A DNA stretch of 64,000 bases, from assembly GCA_033065855.1 (NCBI GenBank), contig JAVXUO010003136.1, positions 28,493-92,492 of the forward strand. The letters are read 5' to 3'. Below, piece after piece: positions 49,886 through 61,479 of the stretch. The notes beneath the pieces were generated by a model. That model did not search any database, was not told the DNA's origin, and saw only the letters and a program-made list of their open reading frames with translations. Numbering within the stretch: position 1 is the stretch's first letter; each line of letters starts with the position of its first letter. This DNA comes from Escallonia rubra (Eukaryota > Streptophyta > Magnoliopsida > Escalloniales > Escalloniaceae). A program made the translations under genes and the position numbers.

Positions 49886-49918
<33 letters not shown>
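49690..49918. mobile_element. hairpin MITE copy interrupted by the MULE
   Basis: This copy is related to the hairpin MITE at 28.2 kb and to the units at 59.1 and 59.7 kb. It shares 'tgataattaatagtc', 'aacgccacaaaataaaagtc' and 'gcattaattatcgttat'. Its right side runs into an (AT)n tract that continues on the far side of the MULE at 59071. Confidence 0.55.
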
Positions 49919-49927
<9 letters not shown>

Positions 49928-49930
<3 letters not shown>

Positions 49931-50174
49931 AGCTGATCCCTTGACAGCGTAGGCAAAATAGGATATCTTGCCAGCGCGATCTGGCCGTCCATCCCGAAGG
50001 GATGGACGGTCCAGATCACTTTTTTTTGCGGCGCTGTCAGTCGTCCGCTACATAGTGTAGCGGACGGATCTTTTTACCATCTTGCCCTCGCTCACCCGTC
50101 CGCTAGACTGTGTAGCGGACGACATTCTTGGGCCAACAAAAAGTAGTCCGCTACACTGTCTAGCGGACGACTGT
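49928..50174 (+). repeat. left terminal inverted repeat of the MULE
   Basis: It matches the reverse complement of 58825-59070. It contains an internal hairpin (gtccatcccgaagggatgga) near 49990 and three TCCGCTA-type palindromes at about 50044, 50099 and 50147. Confidence 0.92.
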
Positions 50175-50253
50175 TTCCGTCAAACCACCCACTTCCCCCT
50201 GACAGTTGTCACATCAGTCGATGCACGTCTGTTACTTTGTCGTTATCCCAGCG

Positions 50254-50274
50254 TCCGCAACACAGTGTAGCGGA
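50254..50274. repeat. fourth left-end palindrome copy
   Basis: TCCGCAACACAGTGTAGCGGA is one of the dispersed palindromes, just inside the TIR. It lies shortly upstream of the PMD-Ulp1 leader, which also holds two copies of 'gcggcgttggcaagtagatc' (50362 and 50479). Confidence 0.7.
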
Positions 50275-50655
50275 CGTTGGCAGGCATTCGAAGCCTTCTA
50301 AACTTCTATTCATTCCTTCTTCTCACAATCAAACTATTCCTTCTTCTCACGATCAAACCAGCGGCGTTGGCAAGTAGATCGGCGCAATTTCTTTGCAAGA
50401 AATCCTTTAATCGTCTCATCAATCACGTAAGTTCACAAACTAATCCTTTCTTTGTTCATAATCTAGAGTTCATCTTGCGGCGTTGGCAAGTAGATCGGCA
50501 CTATGCTAGCGTTTGTCAATGTATATACATATATATTATATATGTGTATTGCGTATTATCTGATCACATGCTAGCGCTGAATATGCTAGCGTTGTATGTT
50601 TGGGAATGTTTACGCTTCCAACCTTGCCCTCTTTCCATTATTTCAGTTGCAAAAA

Positions 50656-53600
50656 ATGGATTTCAACCCTGGACCAGAAGATTCGTCCGTATTATACGAC
50701 CAAGCATCCCATATCAGTACGCTCATATGGGATGGTGGAGTAAGATACTTATTTTATCGTTTATATCGTTTATTTTGCTTACGTATTTCAGTTGCGAACG
50801 TTGTATAGTGTTTATTTTGCTTAAATAATATTTATTAATTCGTAGGAAAGAGCACTTGTCAACACGGTAGAAGTAAGCGATAATTTCAACGCCTGGAAAT
50901 TGAACAGAACCCAGAAAAGATTACTGCGTGGGATTGGGTTTGGGATTTTCACGCATGGGCAGATCTTTCAACAACTTGACCGGCACTTAATAGGTGCCCT
51001 TGTTGAAAGGTGGAGAAGTGAAACGAATACGTTTCACTTCCCTCTCGGAGAGATGACAATTACCCTAGAAGATGTAGGGTTCATCTTAGGGTTACCGGTG
51101 ACGGGGCGGCCGGTAATAGCTCATCCGTCCGAAGCAACGAATAAGAGGACCGCTAGGGACTTCTTTACTTCGATACCCCAGGATGGATTTAACAGTGGTG
51201 GTATCAAGTTGAAGTGGTTGGTAGATACCTACGGGGTTTTGCCGGAAAACTATACGGGCCATGACCTTGTGCTGTACACACAAGCCTTCCTCTTGTGGGT
51301 GATGGGGGCAATATTATTCCCAACGACGTCGAAGAACACGGTCAGCGTCAAATATTTACCGTTTTTGCGTAACCTGGCTGAGGTTGGGGATTATGCCTGG
51401 GGTGCAGCAACTCTTGCATACCTGTACCGAGCATTGCACAAGGCAACGAGGCCCGACTCCAAAGCGATATGTGCATGTCTCTCGCTATTGCAGGTATATC
51501 ATACAATTCTTCATTACGTGCTCTTTGTTGTTTTTTTTTTGTTGAATGGACAATAAATGTTGACGATACTTTTTTTAATGTCTTTGCTCTCAGGTGTGGT
51601 CTTATGAACACCTTGCTACCGGCGCACCCAGGCGTAGGGACGGAACAGATAATGTGTGGCCTCGGTTGTGCGCCTGGGAGTACAGCCGGAAGGAAACCCA
51701 CTACGAGAGGAGAGACGATCCCCATCACAACATTTCATACTATCGGGGGGAGCTCGACTCGTTATCTCCTGGCCAGATGCGATGGGCACCGTACAAACGT
51801 TTGGCGCGACGGGTGGGAGAGTCGTTCGTCTTCACACTCTCCGGGTTGCAACGCACACCCCTGATCCACTTCGAGGTCGCAGAGTGGCAGCTGCCGGATC
51901 GCGCTATGCGCCATTTTGACTGCCTGCAGGGGTTGCCAGCCGGCGCGCCAGATATGAGGCTTAACAGGAACCCACCGGGTGTCGGACTGTTTGGCAGGGC
52001 GAATGCGCACGAGTTGTGCGCGCGTGAAATTGAGGTCTGGAATTCTTGGCAGGACACGCTGGCGGCCATTGTGTCGGAGCCTGACCCCGTCATCAGCATC
52101 GAACAGTACAATGAGTGGTACTACCGCATCACCCGGAGGAGAGTAGCTCCAGTAAGGTTTGAACGCGGGGAGAAGTACCACCCTAGGGGTCAGATCGATG
52201 AGCACATGGCATACAATCTGGTAAGTTGCCCAACCAGTGCTTCTAATTGAACTTGATCATTCTAAGTGTGTACGAAGTTACTTATTTATTATCTCTCTGG
52301 ATGTAGGTTAATGCCTCGTTCGCCTTCTTCCAGAAGTTGAGCGAGCGGAAGGATTTGGTGGATGCCATGGGCGAGGAGCTTCACCAACAGGCTGAAGCGT
52401 TGGCGGTTGGCTGCGGGAATTTTTTGCGGCAAGCATCGGGACAGCCAAACCCGGGAATGGGTTATCCGGGGTGGCAGCGGCCGTTTGTTCCCGAGGGATG
52501 CACCGATCCCTCGGGACAGACTTCGGGAGTGAGCCAGGGATATGGTTTTCCCTCTGTACCGGAGATGGGTGGTGATTGGGGACCGCCAAGCACCATGGGC
52601 CAGGCTCAAGCGCCGTGGGAAGATTACAGTGCGCCCTCCTTCTCTTTACTATTGGATTCGGAACCCCAACCCCTCTCTCAGAGTCAAGTCACGCAAGACT
52701 GGGGTTTCGGAAACATCAGTCTGCCCATTGTCCCGTGGGCAGGACCATCTATTGCCAAAGGCGGGCAATACCCCCCCGTTGACCCCCCTGAAGGAGTGCA
52801 ATATCCCCCCGTCGACCCCCCCCGAAGGAGTGCAATATCCCCCCGTCGACCCCCCCGAAGGAGTGCAATACCCCCCGGTCGACCCCCGAGGGCAATATCG
52901 CAAAGGGCATCCGTTGAAGCCCCTAAAGCCGCAGAAATGCCAGATAATCAGAGAGCGTTATTTTAGCGGCGTCCCGCATGACCAAGCGTTGTATAGTGTG
53001 GATCATCCGGAGGGCATGGATTACAGTTGCTCGTGGGGAGAACTGGCCTCGCTGGCTCCGGGGAGTTGGTTAGACAACGGTGTCGTCTCCACCTACGTGG
53101 AGATTCTGAAGGAAAGGTGTCGGCAGCAGCCGACCTATCCGGCCGTTTTTCTGTTCGATGCCTTTTTTCATCAGATGCTAGTGTCTGAATGGCATGAGTG
53201 GGTCGAAAATAGGGGGAAGAAAAAGTTGGCCCAGTGGAGACCGTCCGTTAACCTACGAGCGTATCTTAATAGGGATAGTCCGGTGAGCGCAAGTGTTGCC
53301 GATGTGTTTCTAATCCCATTTCTAGGGCAAAGCCACTGGTACTTGGTTTGCTACTCCCCAACAACTAAAGTCGTATCGGTGATCGACAGTCTCCACGACG
53401 ATACTCATCAGATGCCTGTGCTGCACATGTACAGAGCCCAGTTGGACGCGTTGGTAATATTACGATCGCTGTATAATTCTCTGATTCTATCTTGCCATAA
53501 ATTTTAACTCGTGTCTTACGCCATTTTCTGTTTCTCGCAGAATATTTTTTGTGCAATGGTCAATCGTGTCCGTGATGTCCCCGTACCGGCGCGGCCAAAT

Positions 53601-53852
53601 CTCAATAGGCGATTGAAGAAGAGGAGGCCCAAGCAACGTAACACTTCGGACTGCGGCGTCTTCCTTTGCATGTACATGGATTTCATTTGTCGCTCTGAGA
53701 GCCTCAAGGCGGCCGTCTGGAGCCAAGCAGAAGTTGAAGGCTATAGATATAGAATGGCTTGGCAAATTATGAAAGGCCGGCCTAGAGCGGTTAGGTTTAT
53801 AGAAAATCCGGCTAATGACGAGAATCCGGCCCAACATGCAGACCCCAGTTGA
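50656..53852 (+). CDS. plant mobile domain - Ulp1 protease fusion carried by the MULE, one frameshift
   Basis: Exons are 50656-50739, 50846-51493, 51594-52220, 52307-53453 and 53541-53852; introns are GT-AG and phase 0, and the product is about 938 residues. Residues 1-28 (MDFNPGPEDSSVLYDQASHI) and exon 2 (ALVERWRSETNTFHFPLGEM, TLEDVGFILGLPVTGRPV) are the classic start of a type-C PMD. Exon 3 continues it (RTPLIHFEVAEWQLPDRAMR). Exons 4-5 hold a Ulp1-type cysteine protease C-terminus with H796 (GQSHWYLV), D813 (VIDSL), Q867 and C873 (QRNTSDCGVF), the full triad plus oxyanion glutamine. The linker has 11-residue repeats (PPVDPPEGVQY). One extra C in the run 52816-52823 (8 instead of 7) breaks the frame and leaves exon 4 at 1147 nt. 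It could be a sequencing error in a homopolymer or real loss of the protease in this copy. Such fusions are known from plant MULEs. A role in deSUMOylation or evading silencing is inference. Confidence 0.85.
52773..52893 (+). repeat. 33-bp coding minisatellite with poly-C frameshift
   Basis: Three full units and one partial unit encode PPVDPPEGVQY. C runs in equivalent positions are 6 plus T, 8, 7 and 5 bases. The 8-base run (52816-52823) shifts the frame. Confidence 0.85.
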
Positions 53853-54030
53853 AATTGTATCATAACAGTATTTTTTACATAAACCGTACGCCATTGGTGT
53901 GATTTGATTTGTGTTGATTTCTGTTGTCGAATACTGATTTTTCTGATGAACGTTGTTGGTTTTTTGGCCTCATTGGGAATGATTGAAATGTGGAAAACGA
54001 AATGGTGCAAAAATTTTGTAAGTTTTTCTG

Positions 54031-54740
54031 CTGCGCCGTCCGCTACATTGTATCGCGGACGTAAAATGAAGACCAAATTTTTCTAAGTGTTGATGGGTGA
54101 AGTTTCTGCTGCGCCGTCCGCTACATTGTATCGCGGACGTAAAATGAGGACCAAATTTTTCTAAGTGTTGATGGGTGAAGTTTCTGCTGCGCCGTCCGCT
54201 ACATTGTATCGCGGACGTAAAATGAAGACCAAATTTTTCTAAGTGTTGATGGGTGAAGTTTCTGCTGCGCCGTCCGCTACATTGTATCGCGGACGTAAAA
54301 TGAAGACCAAATTTTTCTAAGTGTTGATGGGTGAAGTTTCTGCTGCGCCGTCCGCTACATTGTATCGCGGACGTAAAATGAGGACCAAATTTTTCTAAGT
54401 GTTGATGGGTGAAGTTTCTGCTGCGCCGTCCGCTACATTGTATCGCGGACGTAAAATGAAGACCAAATTTTTCTAAGTGTTGATGGGTGAAGTTTCTGCT
54501 GCGCCGTCCGCTACATTGTATCGCGGACGTAAAATGAGGACCAAATTTTTCTAAGTGTTGATGGGTGAAGTTTCTGCTGCGCCGTCCGCTACATTGTATC
54601 GCGGACGTAAAATGAGGACCAAATTTTTCTAAGTGTTGATGGGTGATGTTTCTGCTGCGCCGTCCGCTACATTGTATCGCGGACGTAAAATGCTGCGCTA
54701 AGTGTGGTCCGCTACATTGTATCGCGGACGTAAAATCACT
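54031..54740. repeat. 78-bp tandem array, nine units plus a partial
   Basis: Units start with 'ctgcgccgtccgctacattg' and repeat exactly every 78 bp from 54031 to about 54700; a shortened unit follows near 54708. Each holds one palindrome variant (tccgctacattgtatcgcgg plus a), and units differ mainly at an A/G position (aatgaag or aatgagg). Because 78 is 26 codons, a false open frame runs through it on the minus strand. It lies between the converging 3' ends of the PMD-Ulp1 and B3 genes. Confidence 0.95.
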
Positions 54741-54909
54741 TCCTACCATTCACTATCGAGTGTATCTCAATATATCGAGGCTATTTCAACCTACCATTCA
54801 CTATCGAGGGTATCTCAATATATCGAGGCTATTTCAAACGACACAATTAAGCGAGGAAAAATTTCGAAACACAATCAACAAGAACTCAAATTATTTTATT
54901 AATCATAAA

Positions 54910-55373
54910 TTAGGGTTCACATTGGGGGAAAGAAATTTTTTCACAAGTGCTCCGATCAAAGATTACAACTTGAAAATCCCACCACCCAAGGTGTTCAAAC
55001 ACTACAAAGTCCCCGAGTTCGAGGCCATGCTGGCGCACGAAGACGTTCCAACCCTCTGCGAGTTGCTTTTTTTGGGGTCGGCCGGGCTTCAGCTTGATTT
55101 CAACCTGCCATGCCCCCTTGCGGCTATATAATCTTGCACTGTCATGAATTGTTGTAAATTGATTGGTGAAGGCTTCCGGTATGTCCTAACAAACACAATA
55201 CACAAAAAATAGGTTAGTTTTTAACCAAAAGATATAACACACGAAAATACAGAGATAGAGGGATGGCATACAAGTTCATTCTCAAACCCCGGCATCATGA
55301 CTTTGAAAAAGTGTTTGCCTGCCAGGTGCAAGTTGCCAATAAAATCGTAGGTGGTCTCCGATCCAGAAGCCAT
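54910..55373 (-). CDS. B3 DNA-binding-domain protein carried by the MULE, two exons
   Basis: Exon 1 is 55272-55373 and exon 2 is 54910-55185, joined in phase 0 across an 86-bp GT-AG intron. The product is 125 residues, ending at a TAA. It is essentially one B3 domain of the REM/VRN1 type. Residues 21-37 read HFFKVMMPGFENELDIP, the first strand and loop. GAWQVEIKLKP is near residue 60, GWNVFVRQHGLELGDFVVFE near residues 79-98, and FQVVIFDRSTCEKI near residues 105-118. These match B3 landmarks (FFKVxLP...L.IP, GW..FV..H.L..GDF.VF, F.V.IFD.S). No activation, ARF or AP2 domain is attached. B3 domains contact DNA in the major groove. Whether it binds the element's own palindromes is speculation. 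Leader sequence upstream is GC-rich with 'ccggag' repeats. Confidence 0.85.
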
Positions 55374-55544
55374 CGAGGTCGGCGTTGAGGGGGGGACGGT
55401 TTATCGCCGGAGTTGTGGGTCACCGGAGATGTGGGTCGCCGGAGATGGAGTAGTGGCCTGGGCTAGATGTTCCAGACAGAGAGAGTGGCCTCCAGATTGG
55501 ACTGATAACAGCCGATTGCCCGATATGATTAATATATATCATAT

Positions 55545-55785
55545 AGACTTATCCGCTACATTGTATAGCGGACATAAAAGAAGACCAAAAGTTATGACGT
55601 CCGCTATATTATATAGCGGACATTAAAGAAGACCAAAAGTTTGCCTGCTCTAACGTCCGCTACATTGTATAGCGGACGTACAAAGACCAAAAGTTTTACT
55701 TCGATGCCACCCCTCCGCTATACAATATAGCGGACGTAAAAGACCAAAGTCGATGATGTCCGCTACATTGTATAGCGGACGGGGA
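55545..55785. repeat. cluster of five TCCGCTA palindromes
   Basis: Five copies at about 55552, 55600, 55656, 55712 and 55759 are spaced 47-56 bp apart. Arms are TCCGCTA/TAGCGGA with variable centres (cattgta, tattata, tacaata). The cluster sits between the B3 gene start and the transposase 3' end, so it could mark the B3 promoter. Confidence 0.85.
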
Positions 55786-55930
55786 TTACAAAATAAAAAA
55801 AAAACTCGTAATAAAGACTTTAGATTTGATTCGATGGCCTCTCATAGGTCCATTTTAAAAAAATTCCAGTACCCGGTCGAAAAATTATCCCTCGAATATT
55901 ATTACAAATGTCATAAAGTTGTACAAAAAA

Positions 55931-58228
55931 TTAAAGGTCCACTGCAGCTTGTTCGTCCTCATCTTCGGCGTCACCTTCTTCCCCGTCTTGCAAACCCCTT
56001 GAACTTATCCCCAGTGCCTTGTAATGGTTCCGCTTGTCGTGGTCGGTCATTTTGTTGCACAATGCACACCTTCGCAGCTTTTTAGGTTGAGTTGCCGTTT
56101 CAATAGAGCTTTTCATCCGCGTAGATCTCTTGCGGCCTTTCGTTTGCGATATAATTGGATCCAACAAACGGATATCATTGTCGTCTTCCTCCTCCGGCTC
56201 GTCATCTTCTGATACCCCCGTCGTAGGCTCGGTGTCAATCGCATTGGTGACTGAAGCTGCTTCCAACTGGTCGACGATGGGCTCTTGTTGCTGAGCTACC
56301 TCGAGGAGATGTTTATAACCGACCATTGTAGCAGCACCTTTTACGGACAAACGGGTGAACATCGTCACCAGATGATTATACCGCAACGTCTCTGATTCTT
56401 CAAAGTCAGTATACGGGTGCTCCGGAAAGGAAATGGTACCGTGCAACCTGTTTGCACCTTTTGTCCACCGTGGCAAGACGTATTTATCGGGGATTGTCCT
56501 GATATTCTTCTGGGTGAAAAACCGCAGAACGTGTCTACACAGGATGCCATGGAACTCAAACTTCTTGCAAACACATGTCACCGAGTCCGTCAATGTGTCG
56601 TGGCTCACCGTATACATTCTGCGCAGCTTCTCAGGGACTAGGTCATTCACGAGCGAATAAACCTTGTACTCACGCGTAGACATTTCTGCCACCTTGTTTA
56701 TACTGTATCGTCCGGATTTTCGCAGCTCTACTTGGTATAGCAAGAAGATCTCCTTCGTATAGACTTTGGCACCGTTCATCTCCAGCGGGGTCTCGAGCAA
56801 CGTTCTCCTTTGTTTGTACGTTGTTGCAAAGTCGGCAGCCCTTTCTTTTACGAACAACGAAGCTACCGCTTTTTGTGCGGATGCAACGAAAGTCTTCAAA
56901 TTGGTAGCTGTACCCACATAACTATCGAACGTGGCATTCATGGATTCACTCCTGCCCGTCGTTTTCATGCCCGCTGAAAAATACCTCCTCGTGTAAACGC
57001 CAATCCATTGCTCTTTGCGCTCGTACAAGTGCTGGAGCCACTCGTTGTCTTGCAATGAGTAATCCCGAACAAGCTTTTCCCACCTCTCCTCGAATTCCTC
57101 AATCGTTAACGACTTGAGGACGCACTTGTCAAAATCCTGTTTAAAGTCTTGATACTTTGCGTACACGTGATGCAGCCGTTCCGGGTATTTGTTGCTTATG
57201 TGCCAGGTGCACAAGTTGTGCCGAGTGTCTGGGAAGACGGTCGCAATAGCCTTCTTCATTGCCAAATCTTGATCGGTGATGATCACTTTGGGTGCTTTGA
57301 AGTTCATTGCTTCCAGCCACGTCCTAAACAACCATTCAAAAGAACTCTCGGTCTCGTCCCTTAACAAGGCGAACCCGAACAGGATGGAGTGATAATGATG
57401 ATTGACCCCCGTGAAAGGGGCGAACGGCATCGAGTACTTGTTGGTACGGTATGTGGTGTCGAACGTCACGACATCCCCAAAATGCTTATAAGCAAGCCTC
57501 GAACGACCGTCGACCCAAAAAATTGTGCTAACTCGATGCTCGTCGTCAAGTTTATAATCGAAGGTCAACTGCGGGTCCTCCATCTGCATCCGTTTCAATA
57601 GGCTCATTGTGGCTTGAGCATCATTGAGGTCATACGCGGCTCGTCTATGGGTTCGGACCGCGTTACGAACGTCTGTCGTGTTAAAGGTCAAATTTTGAAT
57701 TCCCCCAGCCTGTTCAGCAAGAACATTAATCATGTCGGTAGGTCCTAGTCGCGCATTGCTCATTGTCTGAATCAGGCTCCTTGCGACCTTACCCATCTTC
57801 TTGTGTTGATGCATCTCACTCACCTTAGAAGGGGTTACTAACGGGTGATTGTGTGCCAGTTCCAGGCTGGTAATAAGCCAATGGTCTTGTTTGGGTTTGT
57901 AGCTTACGAACATCTTGACCTGGCAATTTGTGCGCTCAAAGCAGTCCCGTCTTCTACGCGGATATCCTATTTCGTCCTCACTGTCATCATTGCCTACACA
58001 TGTCTCATTTTGCACTGGGTTTCTGCTCCTATGGCACTCGTATAAGCGAGAGCATATCTTTCTCGTTATGGTGCTCGTTCTTGAAGTCTTTATTCTAATG
58101 CCAAAACCAACCCTCAATGAATACGCTCGAAAACATTCTTCAGCTTCTTCCAACGTAGCAAATGTTCGTCCTAGATACGGATCACTAGCATCTACGGGGA
58201 CGTTGGAGCTCGACACGAAATCAGACAT
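55931..58228 (-). CDS. FAR1/MuDR-type MULE transposase, intact
   Basis: A single open frame of 765 residues starts at the ATG at 58228 (MSDFVSSSNVPVD). A longer reading begins with TTG at 58273 and is less likely. Numbers below count from the TTG (subtract 15 for the ATG). A FAR1/WRKY-GCM1 zinc domain lies near 40-145 (C74, C80, C111, H141, H143). The MULE DDE domain has D272 (VTFDTTYRTN), D334 (IITDQDLAMK), the conserved CTWH at 355-358 and E443 (TGRSESMNATF). A SWIM zinc finger has C567, C569, C579 and H581. The acidic tail is followed by a C-x2-C...H-x4-H knuckle at 736-750. All catalytic residues are present. It should bind the TIRs and cut and paste the element. A 5' leader intron is likely (donor AAG|GTAAGTT near 58590, acceptor TTTTCAG near 58288). 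Related plant FAR1/FHY3 proteins are domesticated versions of such transposases. Confidence 0.95.
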   Translation of the reverse strand: MSDFVSSSNVPVDASDPYLGRTFATLEEAEECFRAYSLRVGFGIRIKTSRTSTITRKICSRLYECHRSRNPVQNETCVGNDDSEDEIGYPRRRRDCFERTNCQVKMFVSYKPKQDHWLITSLELAHNHPLVTPSKVSEMHQHKKMGKVARSLIQTMSNARLGPTDMINVLAEQAGGIQNLTFNTTDVRNAVRTHRRAAYDLNDAQATMSLLKRMQMEDPQLTFDYKLDDEHRVSTIFWVDGRSRLAYKHFGDVVTFDTTYRTNKYSMPFAPFTGVNHHYHSILFGFALLRDETESSFEWLFRTWLEAMNFKAPKVIITDQDLAMKKAIATVFPDTRHNLCTWHISNKYPERLHHVYAKYQDFKQDFDKCVLKSLTIEEFEERWEKLVRDYSLQDNEWLQHLYERKEQWIGVYTRRYFSAGMKTTGRSESMNATFDSYVGTATNLKTFVASAQKAVASLFVKERAADFATTYKQRRTLLETPLEMNGAKVYTKEIFLLYQVELRKSGRYSINKVAEMSTREYKVYSLVNDLVPEKLRRMYTVSHDTLTDSVTCVCKKFEFHGILCRHVLRFFTQKNIRTIPDKYVLPRWTKGANRLHGTISFPEHPYTDFEESETLRYNHLVTMFTRLSVKGAATMVGYKHLLEVAQQQEPIVDQLEAASVTNAIDTEPTTGVSEDDEPEEEDDNDIRLLDPIISQTKGRKRSTRMKSSIETATQPKKLRRCALCNKMTDHDKRNHYKALGISSRGLQDGEEGDAEDEDEQAAVDL

Positions 58229-58824
58229 TGTGAAACAAGAGCTGTGTAGAAATAGACTACGCTTAACAATCAAATGGCATTTCTAACTGAAAATATTACC
58301 TAAAAATTAGGATGGCAAACATACGGTATGCATAATCTCAAAAGTGTCTCCAAATTAACAATTATTAATTTATTGAACATAACAAATTTAAATTAGTAAG
58401 ATAAATAGACGAATTCATCATGCCAAAAAATCGAATTAAACTATAATGAATTAAATATAAAGTTAACAAATTATACCTTTTTGATGAACATCATGTCTAG
58501 AACATCACAAAAAATCTAGAGTATAAAATCACAAATTGATGAATACAGTGACAAATTTCTAGAACATCAAGAAAACTTGAAGCAAACTTACCTTGCTTGA
58601 GCGAAGCTTGAAGCAAGTGTTACTCGAAGCTTGAAGGCAGCTGAAAATGGAAGCGAGTCTGAAGGAGAAGAAAATTGTGCTGAAAGAATTGAGTAGAAGA
58701 AAATTGTGCTGAAAGAAAATTGAGTAGTGGGGATGGGCAATACTGTCCGCTATACTGTGTAGCGGACAGAATTGCCGACATCAAGTCACACTTGTGTCAG
58801 ACAAGTCACAATTGTGTCAGAATG

Positions 58825-59068
58825 ACAGTCGTCCGCTGGACAGTGTAGCGGACTACTTTTTGTCGGAGGATGTTTTCGTCCGCTACACAGTCTAGCGGAC
58901 GGGTGAGCGAGGGCAAGATGGTAAAAAGATCCGTCCGCTACACTGTGTAGCGGACGACTGACAGCGCTGCAAAAAAAAGTGATCTGGACCGTCCATCCCT
59001 TCGGGATGGACGGCCAGATCGCGCTGGCAAGATATCCTATTTTGCCTACGCTGTCAAGGGATCAGCTC

Positions 59069-59070
<2 letters not shown>
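58825..59070 (-). repeat. right terminal inverted repeat of the MULE
   Basis: Reverse complement of 49928-50174, with palindrome copies at about 58832, 58880 and 58935. A further copy lies just inside at about 58748. Confidence 0.92.

Positions 59071-59108
<38 letters not shown>
59071..59108. repeat. (AT)n microsatellite at the MULE right flank
   Basis: The same microsatellite borders the left end (49890-49927), showing that the MULE inserted into an AT repeat. Confidence 0.9.
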
Positions 59109-59112
<4 letters not shown>

Positions 59113-60321: not shown

Positions 60322-60408
60322 CTCCATAAAGGGGACGACTGAAAGGCCGCATTTCTTATTCGGGCGAACTGTAATACACCTTCAGAGACTAACACGAGAC
60401 CAGACAGA

Positions 60409-60984
60409 ATGGACGCGAGGTTGATGAAGGCTGCTCAAGCAGGAAACATTAACGCCTTGTACGACTTAATACGGCAGGAGGCGGATGTGTTGGAAGGTAT
60501 TGATAATATAGCATTTGCTGAAACACCCCTACACACAGCAGCATCAGCAGGGCATACCCATTTTGCCATCGAGATCATGAGCTTAAAGCCATCGCTTGGC
60601 AGGAAGCTGAACCCAGACGGCCTTAGCCCGCTGGACCTAGCTTTGAGGAAAGGCCGCACTGAAACTGTGAGGCAGCTTGTGAAGTTTTACCCCGATCTAA
60701 TCCGGGTCCGGGGAAGGGAGAGGCTTACTCCTCTGCATTACGTAGCAGAAAAAGATGAAGTCGATCTTCTTGCTCAGTTCCTAGTTGCGTGTCCGGCATC
60801 TATCAAGGACGTGACAATTCGTGGGGAAACTGCATTGCATATCGCCGTGCGAAACGGCAAAATCAACGCTTTTCAGGTCATCTTGGGATGGCTTCAGCGG
60901 ACCAACAAAGAAGATGTGCTGAACTGCAGGGACGAGAAGGGCAACAAAGTTTTGCATGTAGCAGCGTTGACTAACCAACCTCAG
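60409..60984 (+). CDS. BDA1/ACD6-like ankyrin-repeat protein, first exon
   Basis: The 192-residue first exon starts MDARLMKAAQAGNINALYDL and carries about five ankyrin repeats: TPLHTAASAGHTHFAIEIM, LSPLDLALRKGRTETVRQLV, TPLHYVAEKDEVDLLAQFLV, ETALHIAVRNGKINAFQVIL, and a last one, KGNKVLHVAALTNQPQ. This is typical of the plant BDA1-like group. Its members continue with VVxLLL and usually end in a PGG domain with membrane helices, and they act in immune or cell-death signalling at the membrane. The exon ends CAG|GCATGT, suggesting a GC-AG intron, since the frame beyond it (ACSQVHDL...) is not ankyrin-like. No second exon is recognisable before the window end, so the gene either continues outside or was cut by the repeats that follow. 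Confidence 0.85.
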
Positions 60985-61479
60985 GCATGTTCTCAAGTGC
61001 ACGACTTAATTTATTTTTTTTCCGCAAAATTTTTGATGCTAACTTAACCTGTGGTGAAAATGTTAAATATGCTATACAAAACCTACAGAAAGCGTGTCTA
61101 TAGCACACTTAAAACTGACGATAAGAACACTATAACCTTAATGAGATCTCTACACTAACCTCCTAATCAAAAGCCATATATATCAAGCCCTCGCAAAAGA
61201 GTAATAGCAAGAAACCAATGTCGCCAAACCGACCGGTTTATTTGATTAAAATAAATGTGCTTGTGTGCATATTGGAAATTCATTTGCATGTTTGAGTGCT
61301 CACAATTAAATTTCATATGCGTTGTAAATTTATGTGGATTTGTGTGCTATGCTTGCGTGTTTATACCTTTAAAACTAGTGAAAATTTATGATGCTCCAAA
61401 TTTTGGTGATATGATACGGTTTAAGGCCATTATCAAGTCATATCCTTTGTTGCTAGAAATGACATTTTCTCCACATCAA

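Follow-up and report, generated by a model that had tools for sequence, protein, structure and literature searches.

The window, a 64,000-nucleotide stretch of the Escallonia rubra genome, contains a MULE of 9143 bp (49928-59070) that was delimited from its inverted repeats and from other copies and that runs from GGGAGCTGAT to ATCAGCTCCC within an (AT)n tract. The left TIR (49928-50122) and the right TIR (58876-59070) are each 195 nt long and are 99% complementary. The MULE transposase is encoded on the minus strand by 783 open codons (55931-58282) with FAR1, MULE and SWIM domains, and scores 114.4 bits against the Pfam MULE profile. On the plus strand, a plant mobile domain (PMD) part with putative gene limits (50846-52247) consists of two open stretches (50846-51553 and 51579-52247) that score 172.5 and 67.4 bits against Pfam PMD; a Ulp1/C48 protease part (52860-53849), with open stretches at 52860-53504 and 53511-53849 that score 25.4 and 28.1 bits against Pfam Peptidase_C48 (cut-off 20.7), perhaps belongs to the same gene. 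By sequence, the MULE transposase and the 195-nt TIRs are features of an autonomous MULE, and the 783-codon frame of the window element recurs in 13 of 20 fetched copies. Assignment to the Pack-MULEs, which are non-autonomous and carry gene fragments, is excluded by this frame together with the complete B3 gene described below. Insertions of the element lie within (TA)n tracts, where a target-site duplication of 8-11 bp is indistinguishable, and the element may have a strong target preference for (TA)n-rich tracts. Such tracts surround nearly all of the ends available among the fetched copies (49889-49927 and 59071-59109 in the window). Just beyond the right end of the MULE, an ankyrin-repeat-like frame (60343-61047, read from the translation) is probably a host gene.

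The B3 gene of this element occupies 55373-54910 on the minus strand and consists of two exons with a total of 125 codons: exon 1 (55272-55373) contributes 34 codons from the ATG, the intron (55186-55271) is 86 bp long with GT..AG ends, and exon 2 (54910-55185) contributes 91 codons and the stop. The preliminary description had assembled this gene of 125 residues across its GT-AG intron from the sequence alone and had recommended a profile search of the joined product; the gene is real, as the product matches Pfam B3 (PF02362) with 41.8 bits against a cut-off of 30.1 (E 1.1e-10), the match spanning product residues 22-112 and profile positions 1-100 of 101. Exon 2 by itself scores 37.5 bits, and B3 is the sole Pfam family in the product. 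A phmmer search of PDB sequences returned B3 proteins exclusively, with At1g16640 at the top (E 0.008), and a 14-row profile of exon 2 gave six PDB matches to E 0.1, which are B3 proteins without exception: At1g16640 (E 5.6e-5), TEM1 (2.4e-4), NGA1 (0.003), RAV1 (0.006), VRN1 (0.03) and FUS3 (0.099). The AlphaFold2 model of exon 2 only has five strands and three helices at a mean pLDDT of 71.9. The position of the intron matches that in host B3 clusters, the window exon 2 starting at profile position 18 and the profile matches of clusters C1471, C1869 and C2145 beginning at 14-18; L052 has HHFFKIMVRDFRR upstream and MIPKKF downstream of a putative intron. Among 20 transposon B3 genes compared, the window gene counted, GT and AG are found at the intron in 18 (the ends are altered to AT..AA in L045 and to GT..AA in L038) and internal stops are absent from 15. 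These data support the identification of the window gene as a single-domain REM-like B3 gene that is ultimately host-derived.

A young MULE family of high copy number has the B3 gene as a regular component. Exact matches to a 29-mer from exon 2 number 397 across the genome, 190 on one strand and 207 on the other, against 0 for the reversed control. The best 40 of 1268 candidates scored in a DNA search with B3 are all 99-100% identical to it, and the best 150 of 1402 candidates scored in a protein search are all 98-100% identical, with open frames. In 20 fetched copies, the longest blocks listed (at most 8 per copy) mostly share 95-99.8% identity with the window element, and the arrays share less. 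B3 is intact in 21 of 22 distinct copies sampled by B3 similarity, the exception being L010 with a 1-bp deletion in exon 1. An anchor free of this sampling bias is the transposase 3' end: the best 40 of 1188 candidates, the window's own included, are all 100% identical, and 38 of these 40 copies, which are among the youngest, carry B3. A listed B3 lies at about 1030 bp in 34 of the 40 (coordinates matched by eye); the remaining six were fetched, and four have an intact B3 and two (L058 and L060) show a palindrome array at the B3 site, so that B3 has apparently been deleted. These two copies look as if recombination between palindrome blocks removed B3. A one-off passive capture is ruled out by the 397 exact matches and by the presence of B3 in 38 of 40 transposase-anchored copies. 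The same gene was thus found in other copies of the element, as the preliminary description had proposed to check, and also at the same place in six diverged MULEs. Two of the outcomes that this description had named as refuting its reading, lack of a B3 profile match and absence from all other copies, therefore did not occur.

These diverged MULEs emerged from a Pfam B3 profile search of the genome, in which the best 150 of 1397 candidates were scored; the matches comprise long-frame genes and REM-like clusters, as well as exon-2-like frames of ~86-91 aa that recur many times. Twenty representatives were fetched, of which 19 contain a transposon-type B3 and one (L047) another B3. Six of the representatives are MULEs (L031, L039, L043, L044, L045 and L048, with L044 and L048 being close kin) in which the transposase end lies near B3 with 81-91% amino acid identity over 79-254 codons, and in which B3 occupies the same place, with the same intron position, as in the window. 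TCCGCTA and TAGCGGA half-sites are present in all six diverged MULEs and in none of the 13 other transposon-type carriers; nine of these 13 have TAGCGACGG or CCGTCGCTA, and the other four (L035, L036, L041 and L042) have TAGCGACCG or CGGTCGCTA. One or two of TAGCGACGG and CCGTCGCTA are additionally found in MULEs L031, L039, L043 and L048. With L039:2500-2831 as a query for the diverged MULE family, a listed B3 lies within ~1 kb at 12 of 40 transposase places (by eye), and of four places fetched from the 28 that remained, L063 contains a broken B3 and L064 contains B3, and none was found in the 401 bp of L065 and of L066.

The half-sites belong to a palindrome, GTCCGCTA-N7-TAGCGGAC, which occurs 23 times in the window MULE (at up to 2 mismatches) and only in the TIR regions and on both sides of B3. 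Four palindromes lie within or beside the left TIR (50043-50275) and four within or beside the right TIR (58745-58955); ten, with the right half TCGCGGAC, are in a 78-bp tandem array with one extra unit 3' of the B3 gene (54025-54729); and five are between the start of B3 and the end of the transposase (55551-55780). Palindromes thus precede both the transposase and B3 on their 5' sides, and also the PMD gene insofar as its start can be placed, and they appear to stand at the promoter side of the MULE genes. The type of palindrome tracks the carrier, not the B3 lineage: the B3 segments of MULE L031 and of CACTA element L029 are 89% alike in DNA, yet the neighbouring palindromes differ, which argues against a strict one-to-one fit between B3 and palindrome. 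The N- and C-arms of the B3 domain of ABI3 contact DNA (PMC8398556), and the limits of these arms in the window B3 were placed by eye. Co-change of B3 and palindrome was considered and found to be weak, with an excess of changes in the C-arm at p<0.05 (uncorrected) in 2 of 7 pairs. The TAGCG core that is common to the MULE and CACTA motifs has a chance of ~5% by a rough estimate.

Four complete CACTA elements of 2.5-3.8 kb carry the B3 gene (L032, L030, L034 and L033, with 3-bp duplications AGA, TTT, AGC and TCA, respectively). CACTA termini, a 3-bp duplication and subterminal repeats are present in 4 of 4 elements for which both ends are available; one end of L033 is CACCA, and one end of L034 differs by 1 base from the query. 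Three further carriers are probably CACTA-like, because L041 is 86% identical to L032 over 1 kb, and L042 and L035 are 96% identical to L041. Upstream of a broken B3 in L035 and L036, another CACTA end with TTTAGCGACCG repeats starts at the same place (L035:1890 and L036:1890). Searches with the ends of L032-like CACTA elements gave 2506 candidates, and a listed B3 is nearby in at least 11 of the best 40 (by eye); many CACTA relatives may be without B3. No transposase-like frame was found among the frames of at least 70 codons in the four complete elements, as judged by eye, and only 1 of 150 scored PF02992 places is within 5 kb of a listed B3 (by eye), which is the chance level by estimate. 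An autonomous CACTA element with B3 was thus sought and found neither among the four complete elements nor among the 150 scored places. The genome is rich in CACTA transposase, with dozens of equal-scoring places with 761-codon frames among the best 150 of 2228 candidates. Since the complete CACTA carriers have no transposase, the B3 gene there could be passive cargo.

The part shared between the window MULE and the complete CACTA elements, compared at E <=1e-5 over >=40 bp, is an island of two blocks. The gene block (54899-55319) matches all four complete CACTA elements, the 5' flank of B3 (55380-55485, minus strand) matches only L032 and L034 at 77.8-81.3%, and no other part of the window MULE matches them; both blocks are present in identical order in all seven MULEs (the window element and the six diverged ones). 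In L032 and L034, ~690-800 bp of extra sequence, missing from all seven MULEs, lies between the 5' block and the start of B3 and perhaps represents an inserted sequence or a 5' intron. On the 3' side of B3, MULEs L031, L039, L043 and L048 continue into TTCCGTCGCTAA and L045 into TTCTGTCGCTAA, which is the CACTA subterminal repeat, and L039 aligns with CACTA element L030 for 46 bp at 87% (E 2.6e-9); the window and L044 have no clear CACTA motif there. A CACTA subterminal repeat 3' of B3 in MULEs favours transfer from CACTA to MULE, and this is the direction in which the island most likely moved. The sampled transposon B3 genes stand apart from four sampled host genes as one clade (13 transposon B3s, support 100/99). 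In the DNA tree, MULE rows L043, L039 and L031 adjoin CACTA rows, 34% of bootstrap trees group the MULE rows on one side, and the long host branches make the root unsure, so the tree by itself leaves the direction of transfer undecided. Of the earlier proposal that a captured host gene had been made part of the MULE, host derivation and fixation in the MULE have held up, but the gene is not specific to the MULE, being shared with CACTA elements together with its flanks.

Comparison of the window B3 with those of L045, L044 and L048 gives dN/dS of 0.63, 0.91 and 0.73, respectively, at dS of 0.27-0.34; the same three pairs, compared at the transposase end, give dS of 0.08-0.11, which implies either that B3 was exchanged between lineages or that it evolves faster as a whole. 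The codon likelihood grid is best at a dN/dS of 0.85 for 15 rows (p 0.37 versus 1) and 1.0 for 6 MULE rows (p 1), the 15-row set being formed by dropping five of 20 rows for internal stops (L031, L033, L035, L036 and L046) and keeping L045 and L038, which have lost a splice site, and L044, which ends early. Purifying selection over the whole gene is unsupported by these means near 1, and constraint is visible codon by codon only. The core residues of B3 are constrained: among the 15 rows, 41 of 115 columns keep a single amino acid throughout versus 17.7 +- 3.8 in neutral simulations, and 19 codons vary only silently versus 8.7 +- 2.7, neither value being reached in 300 simulations (0 of 300 each); in the 6 MULE rows, 58 of 114 columns are invariant versus 36.0 +- 4.6 (0 of 300) and 19 codons are silent-only versus 12.2 (8 of 300). 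These excesses do not appear to be a product of dropping the rows with stops. The comparison of dN/dS across copies that had been suggested at the outset gave a mean near 1, and constraint shows in the invariant and silent-only codons. In all 9 comparisons made with the window, chosen from 19 rows, coding indels preserve the frame (3, 6 or 18 nt), and intron indels are of 1, 2, 6 or 8 nt; the chance of a stop-free frame at these distances is 0.04-0.09 per pair, the pairs being non-independent. Columns with 5 or more residues number 13 versus 5.0 +- 2.1 simulated (1 of 300) and are located in the N-terminus, the loops and the C-arm; columns with 6 or more residues number 2, which was reached in 58 of 300 simulations. 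Hypervariable columns were not accepted as proof of positive selection because the simulations share one mean rate. B3 combines a fixed core with fast sites, and with a mean near 1 the rest of its codons may have dN/dS above 1.

On evidence that is mixed, the balance tips slightly toward B3 being an element-encoded DNA-binding regulator, VANC- or TNPA-like, that is predicted to bind and act on its own element. A REM-type host gene would have been taken up, intron included, by a DNA transposon, likely a CACTA element, and would have been passed on to an ancestor of the MULE, landing between two MULE palindrome blocks; it would have been retained since its product acts on the elements. The B3 protein would most likely bind repeated sites within the TIRs and close to the start of its own gene, and would thereby control transcription of the element, with the outcome that promoters are held active or unsilenced (VANC-like) or that the ends are organised for transposition (TNPA-like). 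The candidate sites are of two types, TTAGCGACGG repeats in CACTA elements and GTCCGCTA-N7-TAGCGGAC in the MULE. The presence of B3 in two unrelated transposon superfamilies suggests a shared tool for control of their own DNA. In a wider form of the proposal, which is offered tentatively as a possibility, the B3 family is a portable control module: a captured REM gene that crossed between the CACTA and MULE superfamilies together with its flanks, and whose product would recognise TAGCG-type inverted repeats in the ends of its carriers (TAGCGGAC in the MULE, TAGCGACGG in CACTA) and, acting in trans, relieve the silencing of autonomous as well as non-autonomous relatives.

The main rival explanation, rather doubtful but deserving of consideration, is that a REM gene was captured once in the manner of Pack-CACTA or Pack-MULE elements and has been carried without a role. 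Plant transposons are well known to capture genes (PMC13317346; see also PMC8903248), and passive carriage would fit a mean dN/dS indistinguishable from 1, complete CACTA carriers devoid of transposase, and stops at 36 of 150 places resembling exon 2 of L032 (the best 150 of 1427, MULE and CACTA mixed, at 76-100%, the other 114 having none). It does not predict the excess of invariant and silent-only codons over 300 neutral simulations, indels that keep the frame, retention of B3 in 38 of 40 copies, or its presence at the same place in seven MULEs at a B3 dS of 0.27-0.58 from the window. It is improbable that the gene works on host genes to the element's benefit instead of on the element's repeats. 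B3/REM proteins are host transcription factors, and similar B3s beside different repeats mean that the repeats need not be the target; against this, B3 lies between two palindrome blocks, and beyond the TIR regions palindromes occur nowhere else in the element. Least probable of all is a repressor or copy-number control that binds the palindromes near gene starts and shuts the element down, since the palindromes located at each TIR and 5' of B3 would suit a repressor and an activator equally, but a family with 397 exact 29-mer copies and with the longest listed blocks of 20 fetched copies mostly at 95-99.8% is not self-limited in appearance, and a repressor gene would be expected to be lost easily, yet this gene was retained.

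The proposed regulator can be compared with several known systems. TNPA of En/Spm is a CACTA-carried DNA-binding protein that acts on subterminal repeats and is not a B3 protein. Like TNPA, the gene described here is carried by CACTA elements and its product is predicted to bind DNA; unlike TNPA, it is of the B3 type and its complete CACTA carriers are without transposase. VANC of VANDAL MULEs binds to short motifs that are arrayed in tandem and relieves silencing, according to Hosaka 2017 (PMC5735166) and a report in EMBO Rep 2023 (PMC10398659). VANC shares with the window gene its status as a MULE-borne accessory gene, the noncoding tandem arrays of a short motif, and a protein with conserved and fast-changing parts. 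VANC is a DUF1985 protein and VANDAL a non-TIR MULE, whereas the window MULE has TIRs of 195 nt and encodes a B3 protein of 125 aa, its motif is a palindrome, the gene is also in CACTA elements, and a role in anti-silencing is a prediction here. Identity with VANC was rejected, as B3 is the sole family in the product, DUF1985 matches the PMD part with 15.5 bits against a cut-off of 35.1, and TIRs are present. TET/JBP genes are common to fungal DNA transposon superfamilies, EnSpm among them (Kojima 2025, PMC12730594); the B3 gene would similarly be a single captured accessory gene that has crossed from one DNA transposon lineage to another, but it encodes a DNA-binding domain and not an enzyme, and is found in MULE and CACTA elements of a plant and not in fungi. 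It resembles the Pack-TYPE captures (PMC13317346, PMC8978399; see also PMC8903248) in being a host-derived gene inside a DNA transposon, and differs from them in that the gene is complete, that the transposase frame of its element is open, and that it is retained across diverged MULEs with constraint on its core. Ulp1 (Kaonashi) genes are likewise MULE accessory genes (PMC13317346), and the window element has PMD and Ulp1 parts too, but B3 is an extra, separate gene on the opposite strand.

Aimed searches of the open-access literature turned up no account of a MULE or CACTA element with a B3 gene. The term "B3 domain" is absent from the text of a 2026 review of gene capture by plant transposons (PMC13317346) and from that of a CACTA survey (PMC8978399). 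A sugarcane B3 gene beside a MUSTANG gene was considered as possible cargo and rejected, as it is a syntenic host neighbour.

Neither VANC nor TNPA, the plant transposon proteins best known for recognising element repeats, is described as a B3 protein. A domain of plant transcription factors that hundreds of MULE copies retain and that CACTA elements share would be a new class of element-encoded regulator, and binding is directly testable with a protein of 125 aa and two defined candidate site types. It would also show passage of a gene between unrelated plant transposon superfamilies, as with TET/JBP in fungi, and counts of B3/REM genes in plants are possibly inflated by transposon copies.
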